A program made the translations under genes and the position numbers. Shown here piece by piece: positions 15,658 through 48,529 of a DNA stretch of 49,777 nt. Positions within the stretch are counted from its first letter, which is position 1; every line of letters begins with the position of its first letter. Below the pieces are notes generated by a model, which saw only the letters and a program-made list of their open reading frames with translations, was not told the origin of the DNA and made no database searches. The stretch covers positions 1 through 49,777 of the IMG/VR virus record IMGVR_UViG_3300032731_000119, one strand, 5' to 3'. The DNA is from a virus.

Positions 15658-15882
15658 ATGAGGAAAGATGTAAAGGTTTATAATTTATTTGAGTCTATTG
15701 ATTCATATTTGGATTTGAGTCTTAATGTAGGGGATAGGATTAGAATTTCTGTTGGTGATAAACACTTATATACGGTTAAGACTATAGAATCAAGCAGAAT
15801 TGTTGTTTATCGGTATATTAGGTATCCTGAGGTTATTTGGGATTGGATTATTAAAAAATTCAAGGGGTCTAGTACCCAGTAA
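15658..15882 (+). CDS. Hypothetical protein, 74 aa, last rightward gene
   Basis: It begins MRKDVKVYNLFESIDSYLDL with a beta-rich middle (GDRIRISVGDKHLYTVKTI). Its stop overlaps the 3' end of the large terminase gene by 14 bp, tail to tail, so there is no room for a separate terminator. Confidence 0.6.
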   Translation: MRKDVKVYNLFESIDSYLDLSLNVGDRIRISVGDKHLYTVKTIESSRIVVYRYIRYPEVIWDWIIKKFKGSSTQ

Positions 15883-17467
15883 CAGCATTTCTGCCACGTA
15901 TTATCTCGTAGTACATATCCTCATTAGAAGTACTTGTTTCCTCACGCTTCTTCCTAGACCAGTACAGTTTATTAATCTTTCCCAACATATCTATCAAGTC
16001 CACAGTCAACCCATGCGGGTAATTCTTAACCTCACCTATCAACTCCTTCATAGCACTATGGATATATATCTCACCATTAAACATGGGATTAATAACAGCC
16101 TGTATGTCATCATCCTTACAACCCTTCCTTACATCAGGGGGCATGGGCGAGATAGGTAGGGCTATCCCACGCTTCCTTCGTGCCTCTACTATGTCTTTAT
16201 ATATGTACTGCTGTGCCCCGACTGTCTCAATACGCCACATCCGTGGGTTCTGCTGCTTATGAGCTTTAAACACCTGGTCTAAGAAATGTTCGGGTGCTTT
16301 AAGTTTTCCTGCCCACGTATATGTTACGAATTTTTTTAGCGAATTTTGGGGCTGACCTCCGATTAAAATAGCATTACGAGATCCCGCCTTCGATAGTTTA
16401 GTCTCAGCAAACCCTCCAGGGTCTATCATTCCATACAACGGAATGTCTTTCAACACGAACACTTCTTCGTCATCATTACACACTAGACAGTACCCTTCAT
16501 CCCTCTCTTCAAGGTGGTAGAACTTTAACCAGGCGTAGTCAAACTTATTTAATCCCGATGCACGTTTGGGATTGTTCATATGTTGTGCCCAGAAGATAGC
16601 ATCCTGTTCAGGGTTAGCCATCATGTCCAGGTAATACTTAGTTGTACTCTTACCTCCAGGTGCACCCTCCCAGTTGGATTCCATGTGGTTAGCATCGGGG
16701 TCTTGTAACCACTTAACATTATCTGTGTCCTCTAGTGCCTCGTCTTTAAGGCACGGTACTATCATCCATTTGAACTCAGGGTACTTCTCCAGGACGTATG
16801 TACCGTAGTCCCCTGGCCCCCAGAACGTACAGATTAACTGTATAGTTGAACCATCTGGTGACATATAGTTAGGGTTATCTAATAGTTCCTTAGTGTTATC
16901 GTGCCACCGCATAACTCTCTCTAGTTCTACTGGTGAGTCAATGTGTTTCTGCCCCACTGGATCATCAATGAATAAGAAATCATAATGACCTGACTGTGCC
17001 GCACCACCCACACCTATAGATGTGATAGATGCTTCCTTGTAAGGTATGCCACGGGGGAGGTCAGCGTACTTCTGTGACCACCTGTTTCTCTTAGTGTACG
17101 CCTGGTCTAGTACCTGGAGTTCAGGGTAGAGTTTACGAAGGACTGTGTTGTTAAGTACCTGGTGTTGGATAAACCACTGAAACCTACAGGCTATGTCCTC
17201 GTTCTGTGAGGCTATTAATGTGCGGACGTTGTTGTTCTGTAGGTAATTCCACACAGTCCCCCACTCGGTAAACACGGTAGACTTCAGCCAGTTACGGGGT
17301 TCAAAGATTGCTTTGCGTTTTATGGTTTGGTCTTGGAAGAAGTCACAGAGGGGTTTATGTATGTGCTCAGAGATACACCCGCCCTGTTCTACAAATCCAC
17401 CTACTAGCTTAACGAAGTGGAAGAAGGAACGGTCACATAATGCTCTAAGAAATTCAATGCTTGCCAT
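15869..17467 (-). CDS. terL: Large terminase subunit, 532 aa
   Basis: It packages phage DNA into the prohead using ATP and cuts it. A Walker A variant (PRNWLKST, residues 57-64) and a Walker B IDD (167-169, after DFLF) mark the ATPase. Between them is the EASITSIGVGGA motif, common in terminases. The nuclease domain begins around residue 350 with YGMIDPGG (first Asp). It is the last gene of the late operon, as in T7, overlapping the small subunit gene by 14 bp. The Walker A lacks the usual G-x4-GKT but keeps K-S/T, as many phage terminases do. Confidence 0.9.
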   Translation of the reverse strand: MASIEFLRALCDRSFFHFVKLVGGFVEQGGCISEHIHKPLCDFFQDQTIKRKAIFEPRNWLKSTVFTEWGTVWNYLQNNNVRTLIASQNEDIACRFQWFIQHQVLNNTVLRKLYPELQVLDQAYTKRNRWSQKYADLPRGIPYKEASITSIGVGGAAQSGHYDFLFIDDPVGQKHIDSPVELERVMRWHDNTKELLDNPNYMSPDGSTIQLICTFWGPGDYGTYVLEKYPEFKWMIVPCLKDEALEDTDNVKWLQDPDANHMESNWEGAPGGKSTTKYYLDMMANPEQDAIFWAQHMNNPKRASGLNKFDYAWLKFYHLEERDEGYCLVCNDDEEVFVLKDIPLYGMIDPGGFAETKLSKAGSRNAILIGGQPQNSLKKFVTYTWAGKLKAPEHFLDQVFKAHKQQNPRMWRIETVGAQQYIYKDIVEARRKRGIALPISPMPPDVRKGCKDDDIQAVINPMFNGEIYIHSAMKELIGEVKNYPHGLTVDLIDMLGKINKLYWSRKKREETSTSNEDMYYEIIRGRNAVTGY

Positions 17468-26381: not shown

Positions 26382-26843
26382 TTAACCGTACCATCTATTC
26401 CCTTCTATCCATTTTTTTGATGCCCGTGGTGTAATAACAAACCCGTTGTCTATATGAATAAACGTGGCAGTATCCTTATACACACCCATGCGTAATTCAG
26501 GATGTAGTTCTTCTAACAGGTTAGACATATCAGTTACTTCTTTAACGTCCTTACATTCACAGTCTATTGCTAACCCAAAAACGTGGACACTTAACGGTGA
26601 TGCGTACCCTGCCGAAACTAATTGTTTATTATAATCAGGGCAACGGTACCCACTGTTAATAGGTATCGCCCTTCCCCATTCCTTGCGTAAATTACCAAAC
26701 ATCTCAAAGAGTTCGGCATACATGTATGGTAACTCAGGCTTCAGGTGGTCTAGGTTCCACTGTATATCAGGCGGTAAAGCATGACAGTGTGAGCACTCAT
26801 ACTCTGAGCGTAAAATATATTCAGAAATGTATTTAGTCATCAT
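26382..26843 (-). CDS. Peptidase M15 family endolysin, 153 aa
   Basis: It carries the zinc-peptidase motif set: SGYRCPDYN (65-72), SVHVFGLAID with His87 and Asp94, and FIHID with His130. That is the M15A D-Ala-D-Ala carboxypeptidase/L,D-endopeptidase site, which cuts the peptide cross-links of peptidoglycan. An upstream CSHCHALPP segment is an additional metal-like feature. It overlaps the glycosidase-like gene by 11 bp. It is probably the endolysin, with the holin and spanin candidates at 17.7-19.5 kb. Confidence 0.8.
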   Translation of the reverse strand: MMTKYISEYILRSEYECSHCHALPPDIQWNLDHLKPELPYMYAELFEMFGNLRKEWGRAIPINSGYRCPDYNKQLVSAGYASPLSVHVFGLAIDCECKDVKEVTDMSNLLEELHPELRMGVYKDTATFIHIDNGFVITPRASKKWIEGNRWYG

Positions 26844-27816
26844 ACCCTATGTGCTGAAACCATGCCCTACGCATAGCCCTCATGTGATCCCACGGCATAT
26901 CATTAAACCTACCGTGTGTGTTAAGTTCGTATCCCTTATGTTTCTTATATAGTATCTCCTTCACTAAGGCGAACACTACAGCAGGACTAGGAAGTTTTTC
27001 CCCATCACCACTGGGTAGCCACTTAGTGAACGGCCTGAAGAAATTACCGTGACTTTCCCAGAAATCATCTATGTCTGCTATACTGTGCTTAGAGTACGAG
27101 AAATATATGTTGATTAATTTCTTGTAGAACATATACATATCAAGAGATGTTAGTCTACGTTTTTTACTAACCCCAAGTTCTTTTAATAGTTTCCCGTATA
27201 TCCTGTGCCACTTAAACCCTGCCTGTCCTTCGTTACATATCTCATAATGTATGTACGGTGAGTTGTAATCCAACTCTCCTACTATTCTCCTAATGTATTG
27301 TTCCAAGTATTTACCAGTGCTTACTGCTTCTGGACGGTCTAGGTGTTCATACCAATGATAGAGACTCTGTTTTTCGGCACGAGTATCGTTACAATTATTC
27401 TTACCGTTCCACCAGTGGGCGTTCCAGAACCCTGGGCGTGACACATGGGTAGAACAGTTATCTATAAGTGTTAGAATGACTGTAATCTGACGGTCTGTGA
27501 AATACTGTACCCTTCGTTTAAGGGTTTCCATGTGTGCAGGATTGGGTTGCTCCAGGTCGAACTCTCCGTCCCAGTTTTTAAGAAACGGGAATTGTAGATT
27601 AGGTATAGTGTGAGGTTCCCATACTCCTGCACTAAAGAATCGTATAGCGTTTCCAAACTTACGCTTACTCATCCTCTCTGCTAACTTCTCTACCTTGTAG
27701 TCCAACATCTTCTTAGAGATACCCAGTGCGGGTAAAAATACGGGCATAATATATATACCCTGGCGTTGGTATGTTAACTCTTTAGGTAGTTTAGTTAATT
27801 TAGCTAGTGTAGTCAT
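26833..27816 (-). CDS. Predicted clan GH-A (cellulase-like) glycoside hydrolase, 327 aa
   Basis: Elements of a (beta/alpha)8 barrel are readable: NAIRFFSAGVWEP (about 56-68), VILTLIDNCSTH with FWNAHWWNG (about 113-137), and YIHYEICNEGQAG ending in Asn195-Glu196, the classical acid/base NE of clan GH-A enzymes such as GH5. The nucleophile is not obvious (Glu254 in WESHG or Glu297 are candidates). It lies between the beta-helix tail fibre and the M15 endolysin, so it may be a capsule depolymerase or a second lytic enzyme. The family is not assigned with certainty. Confidence 0.6.
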   Translation of the reverse strand: MTTLAKLTKLPKELTYQRQGIYIMPVFLPALGISKKMLDYKVEKLAERMSKRKFGNAIRFFSAGVWEPHTIPNLQFPFLKNWDGEFDLEQPNPAHMETLKRRVQYFTDRQITVILTLIDNCSTHVSRPGFWNAHWWNGKNNCNDTRAEKQSLYHWYEHLDRPEAVSTGKYLEQYIRRIVGELDYNSPYIHYEICNEGQAGFKWHRIYGKLLKELGVSKKRRLTSLDMYMFYKKLINIYFSYSKHSIADIDDFWESHGNFFRPFTKWLPSGDGEKLPSPAVVFALVKEILYKKHKGYELNTHGRFNDMPWDHMRAMRRAWFQHIGYDD

Positions 27817-33345: not shown

Positions 33346-34241
33346 ACCGTATCCCAGTGCTCCCCTGCTTCCTCAAACTCTATCTCTAAACCTAACCACT
33401 TAAACGTGGTACTAGCCGAGCCGTGAGTTATCTTCGGTATTACCTTATAGCCCGATAAATGAAAATAAAACATCGCACTCTTAGTTGTTCCAGCACCACT
33501 ACCTATGTTTCTCTGTTGGCTGACCCATGTTACACCGCCATCTACACTCAATGATACGGTAACATCTATTGCCTCTAAGTCCTCGTAGTATAGTTTAGCA
33601 CCCCAGTATGTTTTCCATAAGTCTGTAACCTCTGGAAACTGGTCGCCAAAATCAGCATCCTTACCCTGCCATGCCGTAGATACAACACTCCCGCCATCAC
33701 CTTTATAATCCAGTGAATGTAGGTGTGTAGTTCCATTAGCCGTACCAAGATAATACGCATGGTTAGTCTGGATAGTCTGCGTGCTCGATACAGCTTCACT
33801 TGTGGTTACCGTGTCGGTTATCGTACTAGGTACAGAATCAGTGCTTGTTATAGACTCTGTTATTGCAACGTACTCAGTTACAGTATCATCTTCTGTTCCG
33901 TAGATACTATCTGAATCTACTGTAGACGTTGTGGATGTATCGCTTTCAGCACTTGTCCAACAAGTAGCCGTATCCACATTAGACGGGCCTTCCCAGGTAG
34001 TGTACTTCCCATACACTCTGTAATAATACGTGGTGTTGGCATCGGGAGAAGAATGTGTATAGTTCTCTGCTGCCCCTCCCAATCTACGAAGGTCACTATA
34101 TGTACTCCCATCTGTAGAGTATTGTATTAAAATACGAGAGTACGATCCCGCAGCAGGGTTATAGTTATTGTCCCATGTCAAATATATGGTACTAGACGAT
34201 GTGGAGGTAGCACTTAAACTTGTGGGTGCCCAACTAGCCAT
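33342..34241 (-). CDS. FN3-domain tail protein, 299 aa
   Basis: Residues about 1-95 form a fibronectin type III domain (PTSLSATSTSSSTIYLTWD...YYYRVYGKYTTWEGPSN). A Thr/Ser-rich linker (about 98-160) leads to a C-terminal beta domain (VSLSVDGGVTWVSQQRN). FN3 domains are common in phage tails as surface-binding spacers. It overlaps the stabilisation protein by one base. Confidence 0.7.
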   Translation of the reverse strand: MASWAPTSLSATSTSSSTIYLTWDNNYNPAAGSYSRILIQYSTDGSTYSDLRRLGGAAENYTHSSPDANTTYYYRVYGKYTTWEGPSNVDTATCWTSAESDTSTTSTVDSDSIYGTEDDTVTEYVAITESITSTDSVPSTITDTVTTSEAVSSTQTIQTNHAYYLGTANGTTHLHSLDYKGDGGSVVSTAWQGKDADFGDQFPEVTDLWKTYWGAKLYYEDLEAIDVTVSLSVDGGVTWVSQQRNIGSGAGTTKSAMFYFHLSGYKVIPKITHGSASTTFKWLGLEIEFEEAGEHWDTV

Positions 34242-35539
34242 TATAAAGCTCCCCTACCAGCCGCAGTAATCTCATCAGCGAAACTAAACGCTGACCATTC
34301 CTGTGACTTGTAGTTCCACACAAACGCAAACTGCCCCTCACTTGTAGAGGCAAACCAACAAATAATATTCAAGTCAGTATCAACATACGACCATATCTTC
34401 TCAGCCTCAGTGTTATCAACTATGTCAAATAACTTATCCTCTATCCCATCACCTATGGGTTCTGCAACATCAGCACGTATCTCATAAAAGTTATCACTTC
34501 CTAAAAAGGCGTTACGCCCCATGTACTCAGCTATAGAGTACGGTGCGATACAACCAATGCCAGGACGTTGCCGTGGGAATCGTATGGGTGCAGTCGATAC
34601 ACTTGTCCTTGAACCTAATATAATACTCTCACGTAAGTAAACTATTAACCCCCCACCAACAACACCTAGCCCAGTTAAATACTCACCCGAACCTATGAAT
34701 ATATTACTACCCGCACTTGTATCATCAGAAGAATTGAAAGTGTTAGGATCTCCCTCACCTGACCACGCTAGTCCCAACGGGTCACGGGTACTTCCATAGT
34801 CAGCTATAATTAATCTATTAGCGTATGCTTTACAGTACCGTGCCTTGATAGCCACAGCCCCACTAGCCGATGTATCGCAGTCAGCCGCATACCCTGCCCC
34901 ACTCCATGCCTGTACGTTAGTGTTTCCATTGGTGAAACAGAACTGGTTATCGACTATAGCGTGTTGCCATCGTGTGTTACTGGGTGTGGTATATATTTTA
35001 CGCCCGACATACGTTTCAGACATAGCACCTGTAGTGCCTCCATAACTGGCAGTTAAGGTTATCTGGGTATTGGTGTCTACTGTTAAAATAGTTGCCCATG
35101 TAGCATCTGGTTCTACTGCAGCCGTTAAATCCGTAGCTAAAACGAACTTATCACCTGCTGCCAGGTTGGTACTCCAAACCGTAGAATCCCCTGTAACAAC
35201 AGCACCAGTGATATTGGTTACAGTACCAGTAGTGTAGGCAGCCGTTTTGAGTGACCATGTATTAGACCCAGAGGTTTCCTTCTTCATTAAGTCGGCACCA
35301 TTTAAGAACATAGTATTCCGTGTACCGTCTTTGAGTTGAAATATAGCGACAGTCTGTACCGCATCACCTGCTGTTAGACTCCTGTCGGCAGTATGGTACC
35401 CTGGCTTTTTCTGGATACTGTGTTGGTCTAAGAGTATGTTTTTAGTAGGCCATGTTGCCATAGAGAATGGCGTGTGAAGTACAGGGAAGTCCGTTCTCAG
35501 ACCGTTTTCCAGGGGTCTAAAGAAATATCTCTTTCGCAT
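34241..35539 (-). CDS. Tail stabilisation protein (P22 gp10/T7 gp12-like), 432 aa
   Basis: The N terminus (FFRPLENGLRTDFPVLHTPF, then KNILLDQHSIQKKPGY) is the usual opening of podoviral stabilisation/tail-nozzle proteins, followed by repeated beta-rich blades. It would attach to the adaptor and hold the fibres. A GSNTWSLKT...VFVW-type propeller pattern is suggestive. Its place between adaptor and fibres supports the role. Confidence 0.65.
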   Translation of the reverse strand: MRKRYFFRPLENGLRTDFPVLHTPFSMATWPTKNILLDQHSIQKKPGYHTADRSLTAGDAVQTVAIFQLKDGTRNTMFLNGADLMKKETSGSNTWSLKTAAYTTGTVTNITGAVVTGDSTVWSTNLAAGDKFVLATDLTAAVEPDATWATILTVDTNTQITLTASYGGTTGAMSETYVGRKIYTTPSNTRWQHAIVDNQFCFTNGNTNVQAWSGAGYAADCDTSASGAVAIKARYCKAYANRLIIADYGSTRDPLGLAWSGEGDPNTFNSSDDTSAGSNIFIGSGEYLTGLGVVGGGLIVYLRESIILGSRTSVSTAPIRFPRQRPGIGCIAPYSIAEYMGRNAFLGSDNFYEIRADVAEPIGDGIEDKLFDIVDNTEAEKIWSYVDTDLNIICWFASTSEGQFAFVWNYKSQEWSAFSFADEITAAGRGAL

Positions 35540-35545
35540 CTCACT

Positions 35546-35926
35546 CTAAGCGAAAGCGACTTTATATGTCAAAGTATATGTATCGCCACTCGATACACTC
35601 TTTGTAGGTGATAGTACCGACCTAGCTAAGAGACTACCTGCTGCCGTGGCGTTAAATATACCAACCTCCCCTATAACGACTGTACCAGTAACAGTCCATG
35701 CTTTAACAAATTGTAGGGTATCGTTAGATACAGTTGTTGTGGCTTGAGTTACGGTAGCTGCTGCCCGTGCCAACCCTGAAGTCGTAGTTTCTGCCCCTAG
35801 AGTTGTATTACCTGCGGCTACAGCAGTAGTACCCGTGCCTACAGCAAGGTAACTGTACGCAGCTATTGTGTTAACATCACCAACTAAATCAGTAATACCA
35901 TCTTTTCCTGCGGTAGTAACACTCAT
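35546..35926 (-). CDS. Tail-associated beta protein, 126 aa
   Basis: It begins MSVTTAGKDGITDLVGDVNT, with a GTGTTAVAAGNTTLGAE...GLARAAATVTQ pattern found in many small phage tail proteins. It may be a collar or fibre-base component. Overlaps the upstream zinc-ribbon gene by 4 bp. Confidence 0.6.
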   Translation of the reverse strand: MSVTTAGKDGITDLVGDVNTIAAYSYLAVGTGTTAVAAGNTTLGAETTTSGLARAAATVTQATTTVSNDTLQFVKAWTVTGTVVIGEVGIFNATAAGSLLARSVLSPTKSVSSGDTYTLTYKVAFA

Positions 35927-36084
35927 CTTCCCTCCTTGAAATCATATATAGATATGACCTCTGTTTTAAAGTGTCTCGATGTGTCCCCACATTTTAGACA
36001 CGGTTTCCTTTCTTTTGAGTAAATAGGTTCACCACATTTACTACAGAACACTAAGTCCTTAACTACACCTTCATTTGTAGGCAT
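35923..36084 (-). CDS. Zinc-ribbon protein, 53 aa
   Basis: The start at 36084 (MPTNEGVVKDLVFCSKCGEP) is preferred. It gives CSKCGEP and CLKCGDT, one four-cysteine ribbon. It overlaps the adaptor gene by 14 bp and the next gene by 4 bp. Unusual within a structural block. Confidence 0.6.
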   Translation of the reverse strand: MPTNEGVVKDLVFCSKCGEPIYSKERKPCLKCGDTSRHFKTEVISIYDFKEGR

Positions 36085-36778
36085 CTTGATTACTCGACAT
36101 CCAAGAACTATCAGCAGATAACAGTGCATCCCTATCTCGTTCCTCACGAGCATAAATGTTAATTAAACCAGACACCATATCAACCCATTCCTCTTTCTCA
36201 TCCCTGGCTTCTTTGTACCGTTTTAGTCGCTGTAAACTCTGTATAACAGCCAGTTTCAAAATAGGTTCATCCCACTCCTCACCCAACTCGGTAGTGATAT
36301 AGGTAGTACCGTCCAGTTTATCTATCTTCTTAACGTAGTAGATAGTCAACGCATAAGCATCGTCAGGTGTCTTATAGAGATATAGACTAGACCCACGCCT
36401 TGCCCACTCGGTAGGTTCACCCTCAGCGTCAGTGTCAGCACGACCCGTGTATCCCTTATATTGCTTCCAGCCAATATTCTCTAATACAGTATCATTAGTT
36501 CTGTCCCATATACCCTCTACGTATAAAGAATCACCAGGTACATCAACATAGGCAACCCCATCAGTGGTTGATTGTGAAGCATCGTCAGTGTGTAACGGTG
36601 GGAAGTAAAAGTCACGCTTTAAACCCCAGAACTTATGTTTTGTAGTTAAAGTCAGGTACGCTGTATTAATCCACCTGCCATACAAATTGGATAAATCTGT
36701 ATGACTTTCTAAGTCTGTACGTTCACCCAACTCAAACTTTAGCTGACTTTTGAACTCGCTGAATGTATAATCCCCCAT
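36071..36778 (-). CDS. Head-tail adaptor protein, 235 aa
   Basis: A helical N terminus (TFSEFKSQLKFELGERTD...WINTAYLTLTTKHKFW) is followed by a beta region and then helices. The pattern resembles phage adaptor proteins (T7 gp11/P22 gp4-like). The order portal, capsid, adaptor, stabilisation protein fits. It is the first gene after the GroES-like gene. Confidence 0.6.
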   Translation of the reverse strand: MGDYTFSEFKSQLKFELGERTDLESHTDLSNLYGRWINTAYLTLTTKHKFWGLKRDFYFPPLHTDDASQSTTDGVAYVDVPGDSLYVEGIWDRTNDTVLENIGWKQYKGYTGRADTDAEGEPTEWARRGSSLYLYKTPDDAYALTIYYVKKIDKLDGTTYITTELGEEWDEPILKLAVIQSLQRLKRYKEARDEKEEWVDMVSGLINIYAREERDRDALLSADSSWMSSNQDAYK

Positions 36779-36790
36779 GATTTATCTCCA

Positions 36791-37072
36791 TCATTCCTCG
36801 TACTTAGCCAGTACCTCAGTCTCCCTGCATATCCTATGTTTCTCACCGTCTTTATACGATGAATCGGATATAAGGAATAAATGTGCACCAGTAAACGCTG
36901 AAATCAGAATTTTATCCCCTTTCTCTATAGTCTTACACTTAGGCCCGACCTCATGCACTACAGCCTCACGGGTACGTTGCTCGTGTCGTTCGGATAATAG
37001 TATAGAACCTATCCTGTCAGACACAGGCAGCCACTCGTAATAAATGTTGTCCTCAACTGGAAATATCTTCAT
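36791..37072 (-). CDS. GroES-like co-chaperonin, 93 aa
   Basis: The start at 37072 (MKIFPVEDNIYYEW) has GGGGAG six bases upstream. The sequence lines up with GroES: a short strand start, then GSILLSE (22-28) in the place of the mobile-loop GGIVL segment, and TREAVVHEVG (34-43) in the place of TRGEVLAVG. Next comes GDKILISAFTG (52-62), matching the GD-x-V-x-F segment. T4 gp31 is the known phage example, needed to fold its capsid protein. A hydrophobic ILL tripeptide is kept, as expected for GroEL binding. It sits in the head-to-tail gene block, consistent with capsid or tail folding by host GroEL. Confidence 0.75.
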   Translation of the reverse strand: MKIFPVEDNIYYEWLPVSDRIGSILLSERHEQRTREAVVHEVGPKCKTIEKGDKILISAFTGAHLFLISDSSYKDGEKHRICRETEVLAKYEE

Positions 37073-37092: not shown

Positions 37093-37341
37093 CTAATCTG
37101 TTAATTGACGTTCTTTTATATCTAAATGTGCCGCATCTTCCCACCCCTTCTTAAACCGCCACGTGAAGTGAGGATTGCAGTACCAGCGACCACGATACTT
37201 AGACATCTTACTCTCAGGCCATAAGCAACCACCGCCAGTTATCTCTGCATCATTCATAGATATTCCACCACATACATGACACTTCCTGCGTGGTTCCTCA
37301 AAGACTTTAGTGAGATCTGGTTCCTCTACCCTAATTGTCAT
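37093..37341 (-). CDS. Zinc-binding hypothetical protein, 82 aa
   Basis: The start at 37341 overlaps the previous stop. CHVCGG and YCNPHF, with another Cys (GGGCLWPE), make a zinc site in the middle. The C terminus is charged. No function recognised; it precedes the GroES-like gene. Confidence 0.55.
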   Translation of the reverse strand: MTIRVEEPDLTKVFEEPRRKCHVCGGISMNDAEITGGGCLWPESKMSKYRGRWYCNPHFTWRFKKGWEDAAHLDIKERQLTD

Positions 37342-37937
37342 TTTATATATATCCGAGCAGTACAACTTGCCGATAAGCCAAACATCCCTAGATTATAAAA
37401 CCTGCGTCCCGAATCACCCCAGTCTAACACCTCAGCCTGGATCAACTTCGCACCCGTATCACCAGTAGGTGAAACCATAACCATACAACTCTCTGGTGTA
37501 TAAATTTTGATACTGTAGGTTTTAGTTGTTTCATTTGTTAATGCGTTTTGAGCATACGCTACATCCACATAATGTTTACTTCCATCCACAGCAGTTATAT
37601 AGAACCACCCTAGATTATTTCCACTCTCAGGAGATTCATGTACGTGCAACCAGTCCCCAACACTTGCACCAGTAAATACTGCACCAGAAGCAGGGTCGGT
37701 AATCCTATATGTAGACGTAACTGTAAACGTTAGTGACCCCACATTCACAGTCGGTGTTGCGTTCGGTTTTAGCGTTTTAAATGTAACACCATCTCCAGTA
37801 GCAGCAGGTGTTAATATAACTTTCCTCATAACAATAGGCATTAAACCAGAGTTTGGATTATCGTGATCTTTAAACGATAGTATGTCGTCTGCATCCAACT
37901 CCCATAACCGTCCCGTGTCATTGAATGTATTTGCCAT
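37338..37937 (-). CDS. Putative head-associated protein, 199 aa
   Basis: It begins MANTFNDTGRLWELDADDIL and is mainly beta with a T/S-rich centre. The GVTFKTL...VTSTYRITDPASG elements look like virion beta-sandwich repeats. Position suggests a head or connector component. No family recognised. Confidence 0.5.
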   Translation of the reverse strand: MANTFNDTGRLWELDADDILSFKDHDNPNSGLMPIVMRKVILTPAATGDGVTFKTLKPNATPTVNVGSLTFTVTSTYRITDPASGAVFTGASVGDWLHVHESPESGNNLGWFYITAVDGSKHYVDVAYAQNALTNETTKTYSIKIYTPESCMVMVSPTGDTGAKLIQAEVLDWGDSGRRFYNLGMFGLSASCTARIYIK

Positions 37938-39141: not shown

Positions 39142-39666
39142 TCAGGGTATTTTCTGATACAGTTGATTCCACTCATATCCATATAAACCAGCATGAACCC
39201 CATTCGTAAAAAGACTCGTTCCTCCATATATAGTAACGTCTATCCCTTTACCCATAGCCATGCCTAACCAAAACTCTATACATGCACGTTGTTCTCTGTA
39301 CTCATCTTTCAGCACCAACGGTACGCCATATAAATGAATAGTCGTTGCCCCCTCGTAGATGGCATACGCTATCATGTAAGCTATGCTGTTCGTGAAATAT
39401 TTAGATGGCATCTCATCTATTGGAAATAATGTGGCATTAGGTAGCCGTTCATCTTTCTCTACTGTAATAACAGGAATATCGAGTTCCTGCATTTTCTCCA
39501 ATACCTCTTCTCCATACGTAGCAGTTTGTAACCACTCGTCAATGGGGTGCATAGAGAATATGAGTTTCACGGGTCGTTTCAACACGATAGCGTTCATGCT
39601 CCATGTTTCTCCCTCCATTGGAGCTTTCTTCCAACTTGAGCCTAACCCGATAATATTTACTTTCAT
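39142..39666 (-). CDS. Rossmann-like phage protein (YG...EYR.QRACIEFWLG), 174 aa
   Basis: The start at 39666 (MKVNIIGLGSSWKKAPMEGE) follows AAAAGG. A Rossmann-type beta-alpha start (NIIGLGSS) and a C-terminal TTIHLYGVPLV...YREQRACIEFWLG pattern recur in many uncharacterised phage proteins. They resemble small glycosyltransferase or nucleotide-binding folds (DUF115-like). No catalytic residue is assigned. Confidence 0.55.
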   Translation of the reverse strand: MKVNIIGLGSSWKKAPMEGETWSMNAIVLKRPVKLIFSMHPIDEWLQTATYGEEVLEKMQELDIPVITVEKDERLPNATLFPIDEMPSKYFTNSIAYMIAYAIYEGATTIHLYGVPLVLKDEYREQRACIEFWLGMAMGKGIDVTIYGGTSLFTNGVHAGLYGYEWNQLYQKIP

Positions 39667-39680
39667 AGCACCTTTTAAAA

Positions 39681-39707
39681 GGATTGGGGGGCAAAAGCCC
39701 CCCATCC
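39681..39707 (-). terminator. GC-rich hairpin after the large fibre gene
   Basis: TGGGGGGC pairs with GCCCCCCA around a TTTT loop (minus strand), extended by GGA/TCC with one bulge, then TTTT. It sits between the fibre stop (39719) and the ATG at 39666. It may act as an intrinsic terminator or attenuator that lowers downstream expression, like T7 T-phi in a late operon. Confidence 0.5.
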
Positions 39708-43346: not shown

Positions 43347-44264
43347 CTAAGTATTGCCAATAAACACGCACCTCGGATCTCCAAAACCAAAATCATACAG
43401 ACTCACTGATGTTACAATTGTATCATCTGTGGTATCTGGTGCATCTTTAGTTTTAAAGTTTGGTTTCTGTGAAGAAAAGACATTAACATCAAATAGAGGG
43501 TCTTTCTTCGCCAGTATTCCCCACGCAGTTGTAGCAGACAGCCTAATATTAGGATACTGCTCTAGTCCCCACTTGGTATAAGGGTTCTTCGTGTTAGACT
43601 GTTCCCAAGGCATCCCTTTACTGCCGAACAGTTCATCAACGGTGAACATGAGTGTAGGTTCAAAATAAATCTTATCAGGTGTCGCCCCGATAACCTCACC
43701 CTGGTCATCAACCATCATCTTGAAGTAGTATAACGCAGACTCTATAGAAGTCGTGCTGATAGCAGCAGACTGTATATTGTTATACGTAGTCGCACCAGCA
43801 TCTTTACAAGTGTGTAAAGCATATCCCAATACCTGAGAGTCATACCCAGTGTATGTAGCAGTAGGGCTATTCCAAAGCCCGTGTACCTGCTTATCCTTCT
43901 GAAGTTTCATTACCCTGGAAAGACTGGACGTTAGTTTCTTCATCAGCCCGATTCTGTTAAACTTCTTCATCTCCATAGTAATCCTGAAACCAGTCCCGAA
44001 TTTTTCCTGAGTGTAATCCTTGGTGTCTGGACTAGGAATGTCTTGAATTGGAACATTAGCACCTTCAGCTACTGCCTCAGCGTCACCCAAGCCAGCCATA
44101 CGCATATCCCTCTCGATATACATATCAGTGCTTATGTCATTGAACATTCCAGGCCACATAACATCAATAGATGCCGTAGTGGTATCAAAGACCTTTCGCA
44201 GTCCCCCACGTAAGGCATCATTATCTGTAGTTGTATCCCATCCTGTTTGGATTGAATCTGCCAT
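43347..44264 (-). CDS. Major capsid protein, 305 aa
   Basis: The pattern DAEAVAEGANVPIQDIPSPD near residue 60-80, then alpha/beta blocks ending in DPRCVFIGNT, is typical of HK97-fold capsid proteins without a separate delta domain. It follows the decoration-like gene with GGAG upstream. Length is near the 300-350 residues usual for this class. Confidence 0.8.
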   Translation of the reverse strand: MADSIQTGWDTTTDNDALRGGLRKVFDTTTASIDVMWPGMFNDISTDMYIERDMRMAGLGDAEAVAEGANVPIQDIPSPDTKDYTQEKFGTGFRITMEMKKFNRIGLMKKLTSSLSRVMKLQKDKQVHGLWNSPTATYTGYDSQVLGYALHTCKDAGATTYNNIQSAAISTTSIESALYYFKMMVDDQGEVIGATPDKIYFEPTLMFTVDELFGSKGMPWEQSNTKNPYTKWGLEQYPNIRLSATTAWGILAKKDPLFDVNVFSSQKPNFKTKDAPDTTDDTIVTSVSLYDFGFGDPRCVFIGNT

Positions 44265-46310: not shown

Positions 46311-46511
46311 TTATTCGTGAAACTCCAAGATAAAAACTAATTCAAAGTTAAATAGTCCAATAAAAAACGCCCACGAACACATTGTAGACAGTTTTTGACG
46401 TGATACAGATAAAGAGAATAGGTGAAATTCATAAATACGTATTCGAGAACCTTTTTTCCCACGATTTTTCCAATAGTGTGTAAAAGCGAATATTTTTCTT
46501 TGTAACTTCAT
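46311..46511 (-). CDS. HYWK-motif small protein A, 66 aa
   Basis: FAFTHYWKNRGKK then IRIYEFHLFSL; the C-terminal part is hydrophobic (FFIGLFNFELVFILEF). It resembles the 49112-49300 product (FGFFHYWKHN...). Overlaps the portal gene by 4 bp. Function unknown. Confidence 0.5.
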   Translation of the reverse strand: MKLQRKIFAFTHYWKNRGKKGSRIRIYEFHLFSLSVSRQKLSTMCSWAFFIGLFNFELVFILEFHE

Positions 46512-48529
46512 TGTGGTTGTCCTTGTGTCGGTGGCTGTTCACCTCCACCCCCTTGTCCTTCACCTCCACCTTCAGGAGGTGGTTGCATACCCGACATTGT
46601 CATAGCCTGCGGTATATTAACCACATCAGCTATCTTTAGCACCATGCTCTCTGGGTCTATCGTATCCATATCCCTAAGCATATTCTCTAATTCTTTTTCA
46701 TCTATCTCACTAACTTTAACAAGTAACTGTTTAAACGATGCAGGTAAGTACGGTGACTCCATAGCCTGTACCATGCTTCCGAGATTAGTGTGGTACTGTT
46801 CAAGTAATGCGTACCGTTGCTGTGCAACCTCACGGCGTACCTCAGTGTTTAATAACTCGTTAGAGGCAGCAACCTTAACATTAATACCATCCCTCAAATA
46901 CTCAACGGGGTAATTAATGGTCTTTCTCTCAGGTTCACCTTTACCGTCTTTAGAGTAATATGAGTGTGTCGGCTGATACTGTGCCGAAAACTCCAAATAC
47001 ATCATACCCAACTCAGATATTTTATCCCTGTAATTGTCAATTCCAAACTTGAACTTCTTATTTGCTTCCTGTACCCGACTCAGCATTTCCTTAAATACTG
47101 GTCTATCAGCAGTAGGTTGACCCAAAATATCGGGAGTAACCCCAGTAGCTTTATTTGCGTAATCAAGTAACCTACCCTCTTCAGGTAAGATGGTGTAGGT
47201 CTGGTCAGAATATCTAAACTCATATATGGCTTCCTTCGGGTCAGTGTCGGTACTAACCTTCATTCCAGGTATTATTTTGTTAATATCTATACCCTGCCCA
47301 GATTGAACGAATAATACTGGACTATTAATCTGTACCAGTCTATCCAGGTACATATTATGCAAAGAGTCTATCTGAAGTTGTAATTTCTCCAAAATCTCGC
47401 AAGTACCCTCACCATCGAAGCAAAACTCTACAGGATTGAAGATTAAGTCGATAAACGGCCTAAAACCATTAAATATCGGGTTATAGATACATCTTAAGAT
47501 GGTATTAGTGCCACGGTGGAAGGTAACTACAATATCATCCTCTTCACCGTCCTCATCAACGTCATATCTAAGCCATAGCTCCCATATCTCTATTTTGTCC
47601 ATCAAATGCTCTGGTACTTCTTTGTGTTGCTCAGTAATCCTGTCTTTTTTAGTTTCATCCAACTCATCTGGTACAGTTAGGTTATCAGCCGCTATTTCAT
47701 CATATAACCCCTGACGAACCTTCATCTCTATATCAGGCATACGATGATACGTTCTAAACCCAATAAAGAAGGCTTCCTGAATACTTATAGAATCAGATGA
47801 CTGAACATAGTCCTCTCTAGAGATAGGAAAGATGTCTGCCCCCTCATACGAGGTGACAACTTCCTTAATAGCGTCCTGCCCACCCTTTAGTTTGAATGTG
47901 GGTATATTAGGGTCGTTACTCTCTTCTTCTTTAGCGTATCGTGTTACTGTTCTCTTTTTACTTACAGGCCACATCTTTAAGATGCCAGTACCACTTTTAA
48001 TTGACTGCTGTGTAGGTGAAAAGAGTTTCTTCTTTAGATTAACAACTTCCATCGCCCACCAGTTAAGGTCATCCTCCAACATAGGAGCTATCTGCTGGAA
48101 CATCTCGTTTTTCTGAGGATCTCCCGTATCTTTAGGTTCTACGATGAATACTTTAGGGCGATTATGTAAACCGTCTAGTACTCTAACAGATATAGCCTCT
48201 GTATTTATCCTGGTTATAGGTATAGCTACGTTGGCACATTTGGGGTATGGTATATTCTTTGTGTCACGCTGACCACGGTATAGTTTTTGCCATTCACTGA
48301 GTTTATCTATCCGTGGCTGTTGGTTCTTTATTTCCTGCTCTAGCCACTCGCCCAGGTCGTGTGATAGTTTATCCCGTAGGTTCTCACCAGAAGATTTGAG
48401 CTTTTTATCTAACTTAACATCCATACCTCCCTGGAATCCGACTATATCGGACTTAGTGGCTTCAAGGAGGTCTAATATTTTAGACTTATTTCCTTTTTTT
48501 TGGACTTCTTTTACTGACTTTTTTGGCAT
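46508..48529 (-). CDS. Portal protein, 673 aa
   Basis: Long protein with a KSGTGILKMWP segment (about 175-185) and P-V-x-F-C-F-D-G-x-G (about 370-378), then YLDRLVQINSPVLFV and a Gly/Pro/Gln-rich C terminus (about 640-673). These match podoviral portal proteins. The portal forms the 12-mer DNA gate and contacts the terminase. It is first among the head genes, as in T7. Confidence 0.7.
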   Translation of the reverse strand: MPKKSVKEVQKKGNKSKILDLLEATKSDIVGFQGGMDVKLDKKLKSSGENLRDKLSHDLGEWLEQEIKNQQPRIDKLSEWQKLYRGQRDTKNIPYPKCANVAIPITRINTEAISVRVLDGLHNRPKVFIVEPKDTGDPQKNEMFQQIAPMLEDDLNWWAMEVVNLKKKLFSPTQQSIKSGTGILKMWPVSKKRTVTRYAKEEESNDPNIPTFKLKGGQDAIKEVVTSYEGADIFPISREDYVQSSDSISIQEAFFIGFRTYHRMPDIEMKVRQGLYDEIAADNLTVPDELDETKKDRITEQHKEVPEHLMDKIEIWELWLRYDVDEDGEEDDIVVTFHRGTNTILRCIYNPIFNGFRPFIDLIFNPVEFCFDGEGTCEILEKLQLQIDSLHNMYLDRLVQINSPVLFVQSGQGIDINKIIPGMKVSTDTDPKEAIYEFRYSDQTYTILPEEGRLLDYANKATGVTPDILGQPTADRPVFKEMLSRVQEANKKFKFGIDNYRDKISELGMMYLEFSAQYQPTHSYYSKDGKGEPERKTINYPVEYLRDGINVKVAASNELLNTEVRREVAQQRYALLEQYHTNLGSMVQAMESPYLPASFKQLLVKVSEIDEKELENMLRDMDTIDPESMVLKIADVVNIPQAMTMSGMQPPPEGGGEGQGGGGEQPPTQGQPQ

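Follow-up and report, generated by a model that had tools for sequence, protein, structure and literature searches.

A divergent GroES-like gene directly upstream of the head-tail adaptor gene in a podovirus-like virus and its uncultivated relatives

The GroES-like gene and its neighbourhood

The DNA analysed here, hereafter the window, comprises the 49,777 bases of a virus record in IMG/VR. Translation of its minus strand yielded a GroES-like product of 93 residues, encoded by 93 codons from the ATG at 37072 down to 36791. This confirmed the product that the first-pass annotation had placed at 36791-37072 and fixed its strand as minus; the plus-strand frame over the same positions is full of stops. 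A good Shine-Dalgarno/ribosome-binding site (AATAGGGGAGATTGTATG) is located 6-7 bases 5' of the ATG, and 12 bases separate the end of the gene from the ATG of the next gene, an adaptor. Both sequence elements on which the earlier reading had been based, an ILL tripeptide and a TREAVVHEVG segment, were found in the product, at residues 24-26 and 34-43, respectively. A plus-strand ORF at 36777-37040 (87 aa) was taken as an antisense artefact. The GroES-like gene follows the capsid genes and directly precedes the adaptor gene, among the following features:

36791..37072, minus strand: GroES/Cpn10-like co-chaperonin, 93 aa (Pfam Cpn10, PHROG 3188, fold match, five syntenic relatives)
36968..37024, minus strand: mobile-loop segment, about residues 17-35, with ILL at 24-26 (low pLDDT at 19-32 and 20-29; six-member tripeptide alignment)
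36071..36778, minus strand: SU10-type head-tail adaptor, 235 aa, directly downstream of the GroES-like gene (Pfam SU10_adaptor, 7.2e-12; same neighbour in all relatives)
35546..35926, minus strand: Gp80-like fiber/tail protein, 126 aa (Pfam Gp80, 1.8e-7)
34241..35539, minus strand: nozzle-like virion structural protein, 432 aa (PHROG 3287 virion structural protein, 7.9e-26)
37093..37365, minus strand: small protein with a CxxC...CxxH motif, encoded upstream of the GroES-like gene, 90 aa if counted from the called TTG start (counterparts of 170-176 aa in this position in the relatives)
43347..44264, minus strand: major capsid protein, 305 aa, candidate substrate (Pfam Phage_capsid_4, 3.6e-12)
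46508..48529, minus strand: portal protein, 673 aa (PHROG 1216, 1.1e-21)

The name "nozzle" is suggested by gene order, and the CxxC...CxxH gene probably starts at an internal ATG. Elsewhere in the window, the nearest annotated matches of the terminase (15869-17467, minus strand) include the archaeal viruses Methanomicrobiales vir526 and ANMV-1 as well as a Manatee Spring phage, at 24-31% identity, while the presence of a peptidase M15 gene (26382-26843) points to a bacterial host. Beside the peptidase gene, in the tail gene region, the product of 26833-27816 (minus strand) weakly resembled cellulase (GH5), scoring slightly below the cut-off.

Homology to GroES and predicted fold

The 93-aa protein matched Pfam Cpn10 (PF00166) with 24.4 bits, above the gathering score of 21.1 (E 3e-5), and PHROG 3188, "co-chaperonin GroES", at 4.3e-6. 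A profile built from the five relatives only gave it 56 bits (E 4e-16), whereas the best of 2000 composition-matched shuffles reached 7 bits. Among 283 window ORFs of 40 aa or more, no other one exceeded 5 bits against this profile, and the Cpn10 search within the record returned a single Cpn10; a second, overlooked GroES between portal and scaffold, the slot used in some other phages, was thus rejected. Scanned member by member, all six members of the clade matched Pfam Cpn10 at E <= 1 (best 6.6e-14), and the six-member family profile matched GroES chains among the solved structures, down to 6e-9. Searches with the single sequence gave no phage record in tblastn and, in phmmer against the PDB, GroES only at E 1.2; the BLAST failure is attributable to the divergence of the protein. 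The score against the NCBIfam GroES equivalogs (21 bits) did not reach the cut-off of 119, indicating that the protein is related to GroES but is not of the standard cellular type. By profile comparison, the gene is a real, divergent GroES/Cpn10 homologue, and its resemblance to GroES is not due to chance.

The structure of the monomer was predicted with AlphaFold from the six sequences (pLDDT 80, pTM 0.74). Of the five models, only two came out as confident, owing to the shallow alignment. The best structural match was the M. tuberculosis Cpn10 (Z 11.0, rmsd 2.6 over 75 residues), followed by T. thermophilus Cpn10 (Z 10.4, rmsd 1.9, 72 residues), T4 gp31 (Z 10.0, rmsd 3.6, 88 residues), and Xanthomonas GroES (Z 10.0, rmsd 1.4, 66 residues). 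Most Cpn10 chains scored Z 8.3-11 against the model, as compared with 7.3 or less for the GroES-like domains of dehydrogenases. Cpn10s and gp31 also headed the Foldseek list of an earlier AlphaFold model, and the nearest predicted structures in a viral library were proteins named GroES. The low-confidence stretch, residues 19-32 in one model and 20-29 in the other, falls at the site expected for the mobile loop, in agreement with the loop proposed earlier for residues 17-34. The monomer model therefore predicts, with moderate confidence, a GroES beta-barrel fold. Together with the Cpn10 profile match, the first-ranked Cpn10/gp31 fold upheld the initial proposal of a phage GroES-like co-chaperonin within the virion gene block.

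Conservation in uncultivated relatives and anatomy of the loop and roof

Two relatives were found in IMG/VR via the terminase, and alignment of the nozzle protein yielded four more related contigs and, in addition, one remote match. Pattern scans of viral contigs with the 93-aa protein, the adaptor and the capsid protein retrieved no relatives; the six GroES sequences, once aligned, diverged too much for such a scan. A nozzle-family scan of bacterial and archaeal genomes detected neither a provirus nor a host link.

Five uncultivated relatives have contigs that extend over the corresponding position, and in each of them a Cpn10-family gene immediately precedes the SU10-type adaptor gene. Four of these genes (in G001, G002, G005, and G006) matched Cpn10 above the cut-off. 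In the fifth relative, G004, the slot is occupied by a 111-aa protein (L015 3294-3629), which was missed in the whole-record Cpn10 search and was counted at E <= 1 in the member-wise Pfam scan. G003 was left out of this count, as its contig (L014) begins only 136 bases before the adaptor. The window protein shares roughly 25-40% identity with its five relatives, and only seven residues are invariant across the clade. The best-conserved member, that of G005, is an ordinary GroES at 4e-15.

A hydrophobic-x-hydrophobic tripeptide is kept in the loop of all six members: ILL in the window, IYM, IIL, IVL, and IWL in four relatives, and LEL in the L015 protein. The last-mentioned protein has a rebuilt, longer mobile loop (SKRIERVDGTNVDLELPEV) without the GG-I motif. 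The window loop is not lengthened; it lacks the usual GroES GG and reads G-S-I-L-L. The loss of the GG in the window and the rebuilt loop of L015 imply that binding to GroEL may be specialised. Only PKCKTIEK separates the VG core motif of the window protein from GD, indicating that the GroES roof hairpin is missing; solved GroES, aligned to the family, has seven extra residues there. The hairpin is absent in five of the six members, with G002 alone carrying clearly more residues at this point. It is not a strict requirement of Cpn10 proteins, as gp31 also lacks it.

The CxxC...CxxH gene upstream of the GroES-like gene is also kept in the relatives, with the exception of G006, in which no counterpart was found. 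Its product measures 170-176 aa in the relatives (L018 3999-4514; L005 1768-2280; L015 2754-3284), and the short window protein lacks a central insert of about 80 residues, which suggests the gain or loss of an internal module in this zinc-finger-like protein. A 187-aa protein of an unknown family in the virion block (39142-39705, minus strand) has a counterpart in G005 (L018 1538-2116) with 58% identity, making it the best-conserved local gene, above the adaptor or nozzle.

Proposed function and comparison with known co-chaperonins

The protein is probably a phage co-chaperonin homologous to GroES that acts on host GroEL and supports the folding of virion proteins. We infer a ring of seven copies in which the mobile loops would bind the apical domains of host GroEL via the ILL tripeptide, replacing host GroES. 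Inside the chamber closed in this way, virion proteins made late in infection would fold, the simplest clients being the capsid protein or its neighbours. Neither the window nor its five relatives, whose records may be fragments, gave a Cpn60 (GroEL) hit when searched; with no phage-encoded GroEL, capping of the host GroEL is the likely mode. T4 gp31 is the precedent for a phage co-chaperonin acting with host GroEL (PMC6318259).

Counting against this reading, the GG is lost from the window loop and the loop of L015 is rebuilt, and the GroES-like gene adjoins the adaptor gene and not the capsid gene. Moreover, the capsid protein of the window is only about 33 kDa (305 aa). T4 gp23 is a protein of 56 kDa, and the enlarged-cage argument made for gp31 thus does not carry over. 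A roofless Cpn10 clade specialised for one head-tail connector client, namely the adaptor or nozzle directly downstream, instead of a general or capsid-specific one, is a minor but conceivable variant.

It is improbable that the Cpn10-fold protein has given up its role with GroEL and now acts at the head-tail joint, as a structural or assembly factor working with the adaptor encoded beside it. The gene's place immediately next to the adaptor gene in every relative that covers the site, the erosion of the loop motif in the window and its rebuilding in L015, and a very weak match to PHROG 931, head morphogenesis (0.052), are consistent with such a role. However, the tripeptide and the disordered loop have been retained in a clade that keeps so few invariant residues, and the G005 protein is still an ordinary GroES. 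A modulator role, in which the protein would bind host GroEL so as to block or divert it, for instance by depriving host proteins of folding, and not to fold phage proteins, is quite unlikely: a divergent GroES that binds GroEL would presumably also compete with host GroES, and gp31 does compete for GroEL (PMC6318259), but the gene sits in the late virion block and not among early takeover genes. That the likeness arose by chance, or that the protein is a different small beta-barrel, for instance an ADH_N (GroES-like) domain, has been largely refuted by profile and synteny and is extremely unlikely, since the weak ADH_N match in two members (best E 0.013) and the dehydrogenase domains lower in the fold lists are set against far better Cpn10 matches in both sequence and fold, a free-standing protein of 93 aa, and shuffles that never came near its score.

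The preferred reading, a co-chaperonin working with host GroEL, describes a kind of gene that is already known. The first-pass annotation had considered phage co-chaperonins rare, a view that did not hold: a GroES-like query against a phage collection returned at least 104 records with a GroES-like stretch, some of them short unannotated contigs or near-bacterial GroES and a few possibly bacterial contamination, and GroES is one of the 13 core genes of HTVC023P-type podoviruses (PMC9599517). The podovirus-like virion block, regarded earlier as a new context, is likewise familiar. In Pelagibacter phage HTVC027P and Roseobacter phage CRP-902, a GroES gene precedes the capsid gene by a few genes. 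MW202796 carries one in the interval from portal to capsid, and in the P22-like PBR31 and MW202674 the terminase follows immediately after it. Given these annotated small phages and the HTVC023P core gene, phage co-chaperonins in such a block, including those of short-tailed phages, are already known; new here are only the divergent clade and its precise location, with the capsid genes preceding it and the adaptor immediately following. The clade adds a divergent, syntenically fixed co-chaperonin to those of short-tailed phages, and the small genome (about 50 kb) offers a place to ask why a roofless GroES is kept when a normal cage suffices for the capsid protein.

Compared with bacterial GroES/Cpn10 (PF00166), the window protein shares the fold, the strand order, the mobile loop with a hydrophobic tripeptide, the conserved VG...GD core, and the C-terminal E-[IV]-L/M segment. 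It differs in its identity of about 20%, the missing roof hairpin, the lost loop GG, and additional residues (around 69-76) that precede the last strands. The likeness to T4 gp31 lies in a phage-encoded Cpn10 fold without roof loops and in the lack of a phage GroEL in the window record or the relatives, which may be fragments. Identity to gp31 is 17-18%, the window genome is far smaller than that of T4, and its capsid protein is well below the size of gp23. In gp31, the absence of roof loops leads to a wider opening, and the mobile loop has 22 residues versus 16 in GroES (PMC6318259); the loop of the window protein shows no such lengthening. The genomes of the HTVC023P-type pelagiphages and CRP-901-type Roseobacter phages, 50-60 kb long, are likewise of the podovirus type and carry GroES within the block of head genes (PMC9599517, PMC10149686). 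Their GroES gene is located upstream of the capsid protein gene, whereas that of the window is downstream and touches the adaptor gene, and the inserts that separate VG from GD are longer in their proteins. Manatee Spring phage MW202796 and the P22-like PBR31 and MW202674 are likewise small phages with a Cpn10 beside the portal, capsid, or terminase gene, but in a different slot and with 18-26% identity to the window protein.
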